Shown here: piece after piece, positions 2,753 through 5,653 of the stretch | How the letters are laid out: every line of letters starts with the position of its first letter | Position numbering within the stretch: position 1 is the first letter of the stretch | NCBI GenBank assembly: GCA_002917775.1 | Contig: KZ627157.1 | Coordinates: forward strand, 698,886 to 762,885 | DNA length: 64,000 bases | Direction of reading: 5' to 3' | From: Glaciozyma antarctica PI12 | Lineage: Eukaryota > Basidiomycota > Microbotryomycetes > Kriegeriales > Camptobasidiaceae | Position numbers and translations under genes: made by a program | The notes under the pieces: model-generated | What the model saw: only the letters and a program-made list of their open reading frames with translations | The model's database searches: none | What the model was told of the DNA's origin: nothing

Positions 2753-4890
2753 CTATTCCAACCCCAAAGTCTCAAAGAAATCCTTCGCCCCCATCCTCAC
2801 TCCCATCGCATTCTCCCCCAACCCAACAGGTACCTCCGGATGCCCCAGATTCACCCTCAACAGCTTCACCGTCCCCCCGTACTTCTCCACCAACTGCTCC
2901 CCAGGCCACCTCACCACACTTGGGGTATTAAACCCCACCCCCATCTCGAGCAGCAGGACGAAAGACCCTTTCGCTCGGGCAGCGAGGACGGCTTGTTCGA
3001 CTTGTTGCTCGTATCGTTCCCTCTGCCCTTGCTGAGGCGTCTCTAGGAAACCCCCGACGCGGAGGTTGAGGAAGACTTCGCCGCCGCATTGAGGGCAGGA
3101 TGAGGATGAGGTCGAGTCGATCTTCGGGGATTCGCATGGCGTCGGGTTTGAGGAACGGTCTCGCGCGTTCGAGCGCTGGCATCGAGTCAAAGAACGCCAT
3201 CGGGTTGCACGGCGCAACGCACTGGAAGTACGAGTACGACCCCTGGGGCGTCCAGGTTTGGGCGCGAGAGAAGCCGGATTGGACGAAGACGTTGTCGGCG
3301 TTGGAAGTGAGGACGGTTTAGGAGGATTTGGAGAGGGCAAAAGAGAGGAGGCAGGTGTAGACGGGTGTGGGACCCCAGGTGGTGGCGGTATGGGCGTGGG
3401 CGAGGAGGAAGGCCCATCTGACGAGGGGCTGCGAAGGAGGTCAGCGAGGTTGCGAAGGTGCGAAGAGGAAACGCACGTCGTCGAATTCGTATCCAATGCT
3501 GTGGTAGAGAGTCTGCATGTCGGTGGACTTGAGTAAGTCGGGATAAAGCGTCTTGAAGAGCTCCTTGGAATTGTAATCGAGTCTCATCCCTAGATCCTCG
3601 CGCACGGCATCGGCGCTCAATCCCGCACCAGCGTGAATAATGACTGCGTCGGATTCCTTCATCCATTCAAGAACTTTCGGCGAGAGAGCGACGTGTTGAG
3701 TGAGAGGGAGAGGCGTGGGGAGGTCGGAGAAAAGGCGGGAGGTGGCGGCGAGGTAGTTGTTCGGATCCGAGGCGGAGAAGAGGACGAAGATGGCGCGAAT
3801 GGGAGAGCTGGGGTGGGAAGCGATCCAGTCGTTGACGGTGCGAAGAGCGATGATCGATGCTTCGCTTCCAGGGAAGGCGAAGAGTCCCGTGGAGATGCAA
3901 GGGAACGCCACCGCGTCGATTCCGCCGAGCTGAAAGGAGCGAGGGTCAGATTGCTGTCCTAGATTGGCGAACCGACGAGCTCACCTCCTCCGCAAGGTCC
4001 AAAGAGTTTTGATACGACGCAGCGAGCAGCTCCTCCTCCTCCTTCGTCGGCTTGGCTCCCCGTTCCAGCTTTGGTCCCGCGACGTGAAGGACGTATCCCG
4101 ACGGCAGCGACCAAGCTTTCGTGATGATCGGTTCTCCCTCGTTTGCCTCTTGCTCGCCCATGATCGTCGCACAGTCGATTCGAAGTCGAGGACCGGCGGC
4201 AGCGTGAATAACTGAGGAAAGGAAGTCAGTGCGAGGTTCATTCCGGCTGTGATTCACCGTTCAGGGGGCGGGACGACCCAACGGATACCTGGCATCCGTT
4301 GGGTCGTCCCGTCGACACCTCTAACTGCGAAGGCGCGACGAACCGTTGTCGGCGCAGAGGTGCGACGGCTAAAAGCAGCCCAACATCGCCGTGTTCGCAG
4401 GGTTGACGATGGCGAGCGTCGGGGATGCGAGCCTCGTAATATCTCCTCGCCAAAAGAAGAGTCGGGAGAAGGTCGAAGGGAGGTCGTCGGAAGTGAGGGA
4501 GGGGAACAGCGCGGCGAGGGAGGGTACGTCGCTGATGGGGACGAGAGGGTCGGGAGATCTCGCCGAACGATGGATGAGGACGGTATCGACTGCTGAGAGG
4601 ATGTTGGGAGGGAGGGAAGTCGGTGGGCGGATCGTGAGGAGGTCGCGAAGGAGCTGCTCTCGCCTCGTCGTAGGCAGCCGAGCGAGCTGTGCTGCCGTGA
4701 CGAGGGACGACTGGTGCGCATGAGAGCTCCTCCGTTCGTACTCGGTGTAGAGGTGCGTCAAGGCGAGGAGTTGAGCTGGGAGGTAGTCGGATTCGGAAGG
4801 GAGAATGGGATCCGGCTGCGGTAGGCTGAGGTCGACCCTGTTGGCGTAACTGGCGAGTGAGGTGGCTGCTGTCGACGCTGTTGTCGACAT
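2753..4890 (-). pseudogene. Macrodomain-SirTM (class M sirtuin) fusion with two in-frame stops and a +1 frameshift
   Basis: SirTM sirtuins are protein ADP-ribosyltransferases and their partner zinc-binding macrodomains remove the mark; in some fungi the two are fused. Exons 4344-4890, 3985-4211, 3477-3929 and 2753-3428 encode an N-terminal region, a macrodomain (WRGDITRLASPTLAIVNPAN, then PSHLCADN-VIHAAAGPRL) and a sirtuin (HAGAGLSADAVREDLGMRLD, LTSNADNVFVQSGF, CPQCGGEVFLNLRV, LLLEMGVGFNTP). Three lesions are visible. TAG at 4369-4371 sits between GCF and PSHLC, where families usually have a residue such as Gln. TAA at 3318-3320 sits where Tyr is expected before TVLTSNADN. One extra base in the four-G run at 3126-3129 shifts the frame; without it the exons sum to 1,902 nt. 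The ATG is at 4888-4890. Splice sites look normal. Likely a recent pseudogene or strain-specific null; sequence error cannot be excluded. Confidence 0.78.
4269..4311. repeat. Perfect 18-bp inverted repeat with 7-nt loop, inside an intron
   Basis: Positions 4269-4286 and 4294-4311 are exact reverse complements separated by seven bases. The repeat lies within the first intron (4212-4343) of the macrodomain-sirtuin gene. In RNA it would form a very stable hairpin. It is not flanked by target-site duplications that I can see, and the window holds no second copy that I noticed. Confidence 0.9.
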
Positions 4891-5154: not shown

Positions 5155-5653
5155 ATGGATCCTCCTTCTCCCTCAGGTCCCTCTCTCCAGCTCACCGTCG
5201 AGTTTGGGTCCGTCCTCCACTCCTCCACACGCGCCATTAGAGCTAACTCTCTCCCTACAGCGGCGGCATGGAGCTCCTCTTCTCCTCTCTCCACTCTCAC
5301 TCCATCACAATCCCCCGCTTTTACTCTCCCTCAACCCTCTCCTCCCCCGCCCCTCCTTCCGCCCGTTCTCCCTCCTCCGGGAAGCCCACCGATATCCGGT
5401 TCCTCATCTGGTGGTTACGGGAGTACCTGCTCGCGGACAAGGAGCGGCCCGAGCTGTTTTCGCAGGGAGAGAACATGTTCGTCCCTGCGCTTTTGTGAGG
5501 TGTTTGAGGGAGCTGATGAGGTGACTGGGATGCAGAAGACCGGGGATTCTGATTCTGATTAATTCGACGGATTGGGAGCTGGAGGGAGAGCTGGAGTATG
5601 AGCTGGTGGAGGGGGATGAGGTCGTCTTCATTTCGACTCTTCATGGAGGATGA
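5155..5653 (+). CDS. URM1: Ubiquitin-related modifier Urm1
   Basis: Urm1 is the sulfur carrier for 2-thiolation of wobble uridine in tRNA and also a ubiquitin-like protein tag. Exons 5155-5207, 5261-5476 and 5536-5653 join to 128 residues. The fold signature is clear: VEFGGGMELLF near the start, [12 protein letters not shown] in the middle, then [24 protein letters not shown] and a C-terminal HGG whose diglycine is thiocarboxylated. The ATG at 5155 is followed at once by the beta-grasp domain. A Ser/Pro-rich insert of about 20 residues after the first strands makes it longer than the usual ~100. ELP5 at 50.4 kb acts on the same wobble position, but the genes are far apart. Confidence 0.95.

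Follow-up and report, generated by a model that had tools for sequence, protein, structure and literature searches.

The window, a 64,000-nucleotide stretch of the Glaciozyma antarctica genome, is part of contig C12 of an assembly of 19.98 Mb in 18 contigs. On its minus strand lies a four-exon gene, the mfs1 pseudogene, which opens with an ATG at 4890 and closes with a stop codon at 2755–2753; the first-pass annotation had drawn the same limits, which the sequence confirms, but had not described the three introns (Table 1). All three begin with GT and end in AG, each contains a CTGAC branch-like site, and their splice signals are intact. Divergent from the pseudogene is an unbroken plus-strand gene at 5155–5653, with two short introns and a Gly-Gly at the end of its product, which we take to be URM1-like, a name based on its sequence and not on a family search. 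The minus-strand gene at approximately 315–2410, presumably a delta-9 fatty acid desaturase similar to OLE1, contains a cytochrome b5-like stretch with a Pfam match just under the cut-off.

Table 1 Features of the mfs1 locus, in window coordinates
Feature	Position	Strand	Description
Exon 1	4344–4890	−	N-terminus and first part of the zinc macrodomain, up to CADN; contains TAG
In-frame TAG	4369–4371	−	exon 1; residue 3 of the eight in the zinc loop C-F-*-P-S-H-L-C
Intron 1	4212–4343	−	132 nt, GTTCGT...CTGAC...CAG, phase 1
Near-perfect palindrome	4269–4311		43 nt in intron 1; 21-nt arms, 1-nt spacer
Exon 2	3985–4211	−	macrodomain (VIHAAAGPRLR...)
Intron 2	3930–3984	−	55 nt
Exon 3	3477–3929	−	macrodomain end, linker, SirTM start (HAGAGLSADAV)
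Intron 3	3429–3476	−	48 nt
Exon 4	2753–3428	−	remaining SirTM: TSNAD, PQG, Cys ribbon, NLR, G-V-G-F-N-T-P; contains TAA and frame change
In-frame TAA	3318–3320	−	exon 4; three residues upstream of TSNAD (catalytic Asn motif)
Net +1 frame change	3098–3104	−	seven bases between the DLI and CPQCGG codons; two codons in relatives
Altered motif N-L-R-V-G-G-F	3047–3067	−	one residue short, without Trp; beside the SpySirTM Arg192 equivalent

The spliced translation returned 106 protein matches at E ≤ 0.001 (best 3.9e-164) and aligns along most of its length, at 47–54% identity, with fungal macrodomain–SirTM fusions, including those of Meredithblackwellia, Phenoliferia, Leucosporidium, Sporobolomyces, Rhodotorula and Mycena. 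An initial assignment of the yeast to Rhodotorula is not supported, because the named Rhodotorula Mfs1 proteins are only 47–49% identical, against 53–54% for those of Leucosporidium, Phenoliferia and Meredithblackwellia. The window gene is a member of the Mfs1 family (macrodomain-fused SirTM 1, a name taken from PMC4518038), known fungal proteins in which a zinc macrodomain is fused to a class M sirtuin (SirTM). Both domains are encoded within one gene, macrodomain first, as is characteristic of these fusions. The first-pass annotation had called both domains recognisable: Pfam recognises the macrodomain in the second piece of the translation, whereas no Pfam family exceeded the cut-off for the SirTM pieces, and the SirTM is identified through homology alone. 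For alignment, 27 of the 106 matches were chosen (P0001–P0020, P0026, P0027, P0032, P0034, P0045, P0058 and P0071). The HG of sirtuins is replaced by QG in class M (PMC4518038); the window has PQG, and the aligned relatives have QG in 26 cases and HG in one. The equivalents of the catalytic SpySirTM residues Asn118 (TSNAD), Gln137 and Arg192 (NLR) are encoded, as judged from the 5a3a alignment, in which Arg192 was counted against the numbering of PMC4518038. The solved Mfs1 structure, 8RSN from Fusarium Foc1Mfs1 (PMC11490716), matches P0001, the window's top relative.

After splicing, the reading frame is still interrupted by the TAG, the TAA and a net +1 change. The two stops were confirmed as in-frame and exonic, as first annotated, and introns fail to explain them: all three are well signalled, yet none spans either codon. 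In zinc macrodomains an N-terminal three-helix bundle supports the zinc loop. The zinc is held there by three residues in a motif only eight residues long (PMC11490716), which by our own positional mapping would correspond to C-F-x-P-S-H-L-C in the window. Codons for its Cys, His and Cys are present, but the TAG interrupts the loop; where the window reads LGCF-stop-PSHLCADN, a sense residue is present in all 27 aligned relatives. The third lesion had been described as a one-base surplus at 3126–3129. A net change of +1 does exist, but homology remains in frame for seven residues beyond that position: MRIPEDRLDLI is read in the first frame to 3105, and CPQCGG is picked up in the other frame from 3097, placing the true site between them, within an imperfect six-base tandem repeat.

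Intron 1, at 132 nt compared with 55 and 48 nt for introns 2 and 3, contains a near-perfect palindrome and folds far better than its shuffles (z −5.3). The exact 17-base arm of the palindrome occurs only at this locus in the assembly, and matches elsewhere with two mismatches number four, compared with two for the reversed control; the palindrome was therefore rejected as a dispersed element. Two relatives, P0107 and P0070, have no intron at this position (CADN is followed directly by V-[IV]-H-A-A), so intron 1 appears not to be universal in the family and may have been gained in this lineage.

The closest available comparison is with a sister sequence made up of P0021 (314 aa) and P0109 (166 aa), metagenomic open reading frames that both list a longest contig of 10,158 bases and are taken to share it. 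P0021 shows 79% identity to the window across 41% of the query (exons 2–3) and runs on, in a different frame, through introns 2 and 3, implying both introns at the window's positions; P0109 is 88% identical across the last 114 residues. The first-pass annotation had proposed comparison with sister species, and this can be made at two of the lesions, the sister's coverage excluding exon 1 with its TAG. At the TAA site, the 71 implied exon 4 codons of the sister permit no stop, a method that leaves stops possible at 27 other positions of this stretch, and P0109 keeps its frame where the window's changes. The sister sequence thereby places the TAA and the frame change on the window's branch, after the split. 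A search for the sister's exon 1 recovered only two other proteins; the TAG may therefore predate the split, although it probably arose after it as well. The motif beside the Arg192 equivalent, V-R-[GA]-[GA]-x-W-F in 26 of the 27 relatives (the exception is P0058), is altered in the window and reads N-L-R-M-G-N-F in the sister. Because P0109 has the same shortening of R-x-x-x-W-F, the change predates the split and was ruled out as a fourth lesion. The sister also has Arg for the second Gly of the near-invariant G-x-G-F-N-T-P, and Gly-Asn for Ala-Asp in GAGLSAD; on account of these two changes, its SirTM may be impaired too.

The age of the loss was assessed from missense decay. Over 362 compared sites, polarity based on 11 relatives (undecided at 12 sites) assigns 24 replacements to the window and 15 to the sister (binomial p = 0.20), and polarity based on 27 relatives (undecided at 4) assigns 25 and 22 (p = 0.77); excess missense decay in the window is not significant. 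In the sister-covered part, 98 columns are invariant in the 11 relatives. The only window-private change among them lies inside the frame-change lesion, and at the other 97 columns there is none, compared with three sister-only changes and seven common to both. Outside this part the window has three more changes, of undated age, at columns invariant in 10 relatives (two N-terminal and one beside TSNAD). For the whole protein, 10 relatives give 148 invariant columns, at which the window has nine differences and one gap, the second highest count among 11 proteins (P0003 has 12). Against 17 basidiomycete relatives it has 3 differences in 107 columns and one gap, which is not extreme. Random substitutions in mfs1 would be nonsense in 3.2% of cases and missense in 72%. 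The absence of private changes at the 97 columns limits the neutral substitutions since the loss to about 27 at most, or 1.4%, and the conditional probability of two nonsense changes with no missense change at these columns is 0.05, or 0.22 if one nonsense change was the founding loss. The combination is consistent with recent loss, with mild tension, and is slightly unexpected under neutral drift. The loss looks recent because, at the 97 invariant columns where the sister can be compared, missense changes private to the window are absent. Recent loss, as proposed in the first-pass annotation, is the best reading of a gene detected in a single copy, with two of three lesions derived relative to the sister, little sign of missense decay and splice signals still in place.

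At columns invariant in 16 relatives, the window has changes at 4 of 50 in the SirTM and 0 of 43 in the macrodomain, and the sister at 4 of 34 and 0 of 22. One of the window's four SirTM changes is lesion-adjacent and three are common to the sister, too few to claim that the SirTM is decaying faster than the macrodomain. This domain comparison omits P0003, the annotated protein of which looks mis-spliced between exons 3 and 4, and P0011, P0019, P0020, P0026, P0027, P0032, P0034, P0045, P0058 and P0071; it retains P0017, a metagenomic record with the worst score (9 of 55 in the SirTM).

The 20-Mb assembly yielded no further fusion gene. Four of the five match rows are the mfs1 locus itself; the fifth, on contig C3, is weak and covers a macrodomain only (E 9.4e-4). 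Within this one assembly there is no intact copy elsewhere, which makes the gene a unitary pseudogene. A PARP match is found on contig C2, other macrodomain matches at two places on C3, and ordinary sirtuin (SIR2) matches in 13 rows at seven loci elsewhere in the assembly; the integrity of these matches was examined at stop-containing rows only. The earlier proposal that the yeast is losing, or has just lost, reversible ADP-ribosylation is too broad for the system as a whole, because PARP, other macrodomain and ordinary sirtuin matches are present in the genome. The evidence supports loss of the Mfs1 arm alone.

A sequencing or assembly error in an otherwise intact gene could produce such a locus, and the position of the indel within a short tandem repeat and the good preservation of the remaining protein would fit it. 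As a control, DEAD-box (39 match rows) and TCP1/Cpn60 (38 rows) genes were sought across the whole assembly. Stops occur in 15 of these 77 rows; ten are covered by intron candidates under a permissive test, one of them by two introns with one stop each, and five lie no more than five residues from the edge of their match, a place where an intron is probable though unproven. In one TCP1 gene the pieces are separated by intron-sized gaps, as read from the match table. Among 19 further rows (macro, PARP, SIR2 and PARP_reg), five have stops, one at an edge and four explained by introns: two are covered by one intron, one by two introns (53 and 55 nt), and one runs into a GTGAG donor, as read by eye. 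Over all control rows, stops are present in 20 of 96, with 14 in introns, 6 at edges left without assignment and none shown to be exonic. The 27,042 nt of DEAD-box and TCP1 matches without any stop shown to be exonic bound the error to approximately 0.2 stop lesions per mfs1-sized gene, if the five edge stops are also intronic. The contigs whose sizes were read are 0.71–2.29 Mb long, and the URM1-like neighbour is intact. Moreover, as only about 3% of random substitutions give stops, two nonsense errors would imply many missense errors, which were not observed. Assembly error is unlikely.

The lesions could instead belong to a null allele segregating in the species, broken in this isolate and intact in others, an explanation that overlaps with inactivation of the gene, which needs no fixation. 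Their recent appearance on the missense test would agree with this; the closest protein among the matches listed is 86% identical. Three separate lesions on one haplotype, however, suggest some persistence. We consider a segregating allele possible, if rather improbable. It is highly improbable that the gene still functions, either by stop readthrough and frameshifting or by splicing out the TAG with an alternative intron. One GT...AG stretch, 39 nt long, in phase and read by eye, does end exactly at the TAG, and constraint around the lesions is high. That splice, though, would delete the conserved catalytic segment NPANTAMLGCF with a presumed zinc ligand and was rejected; two different stops and a frame change would all need to be bypassed, and no reassigned stop was shown in conserved exons.

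The locus is probably a recently inactivated single-copy mfs1 gene. In the ancestral protein, to judge from the family, the C-terminal SirTM would have mono-ADP-ribosylated targets and the N-terminal zinc macrodomain would have removed the mark. Translation is now predicted to terminate within the zinc loop, at the TAG that follows codon 173. The product would lack two presumed zinc ligands out of three, the Dx3H Asp of zinc macrodomains (PMC11490716) and the entire SirTM. Because the TAG lies within the zinc-binding loop, this first stop would remove both activities. If it were bypassed, the TAA would remove the sirtuin core and the frame change its C-terminus, as can be read from the sequence. 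The message would probably be degraded by nonsense-mediated decay. A changed peroxide response would be a likely effect, by analogy with Candida albicans, which grows better in high peroxide without mfs1 (PMC4518038); the loss described here is consistent with that result, and may have been tolerated or even favoured.

A more tentative and improbable extension is that the writer half failed first: the SirTM motif by the catalytic Arg would have been altered, losing its Trp, in the common ancestor with the sister, and loss of the whole gene would have followed here, possibly favoured by oxidative-stress tolerance. The sister would later have changed the Gly of G-x-G and the Ala-Asp of GAGLSAD, and the macrodomain is unchanged in both lineages at columns invariant in the 16 relatives. 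If true, this would provide a natural series from a weakened writer to complete loss. With respect to recent inactivation itself, this is otherwise ordinary gene death, a young unitary pseudogene of a known enzyme family. Which proteins fungal Mfs1 modifies physiologically has yet to be established (PMC11490716). A yeast with recent Mfs1 loss, together with a sister open in exons 2–3 and at the end of exon 4, offers a natural comparison for the role of the system, and the broken gene may be useful as a natural knockout. No earlier report of Mfs1 loss was found in literature listings on SirTM, macrodomains, sirtuins, and fungal gene loss and pseudogenes.

Among known systems, the operon pairs of SirTM and zinc macrodomain in Streptococcus pyogenes and Staphylococcus aureus combine the same two activities that the family predicts for the ancestral protein here, and the equivalents of SpySirTM Asn118, Gln137 and Arg192 are encoded in the window gene. 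The bacterial pair is not fused: each enzyme has its own gene, accompanied in some species by GcvH-L and lipoate partners (PMC4518038). Fusion-derived macrodomains do not remove the mark from GcvH-L (PMC11490716). With fungal Mfs1 (PMC4518038; PMC11490716) the window gene shares the domain order, the zinc-loop residues LGCFxPxHxCxD (with the TAG interrupting them), TSNAD, PQG, the cysteine ribbon and the C-terminal G-x-G-F-N-T-P, but it is set apart by its two in-frame stops and one frame change. It also departs from 26 of 27 Mfs1 relatives in the shortened, Trp-less motif that it has in common with its sister. P0021 and P0109 match it in this shortening and in the places of introns 2 and 3, whereas the TAA and frame change are confined to the window, and the Arg for the second Gly of G-x-G-F-N-T-P to the sister.
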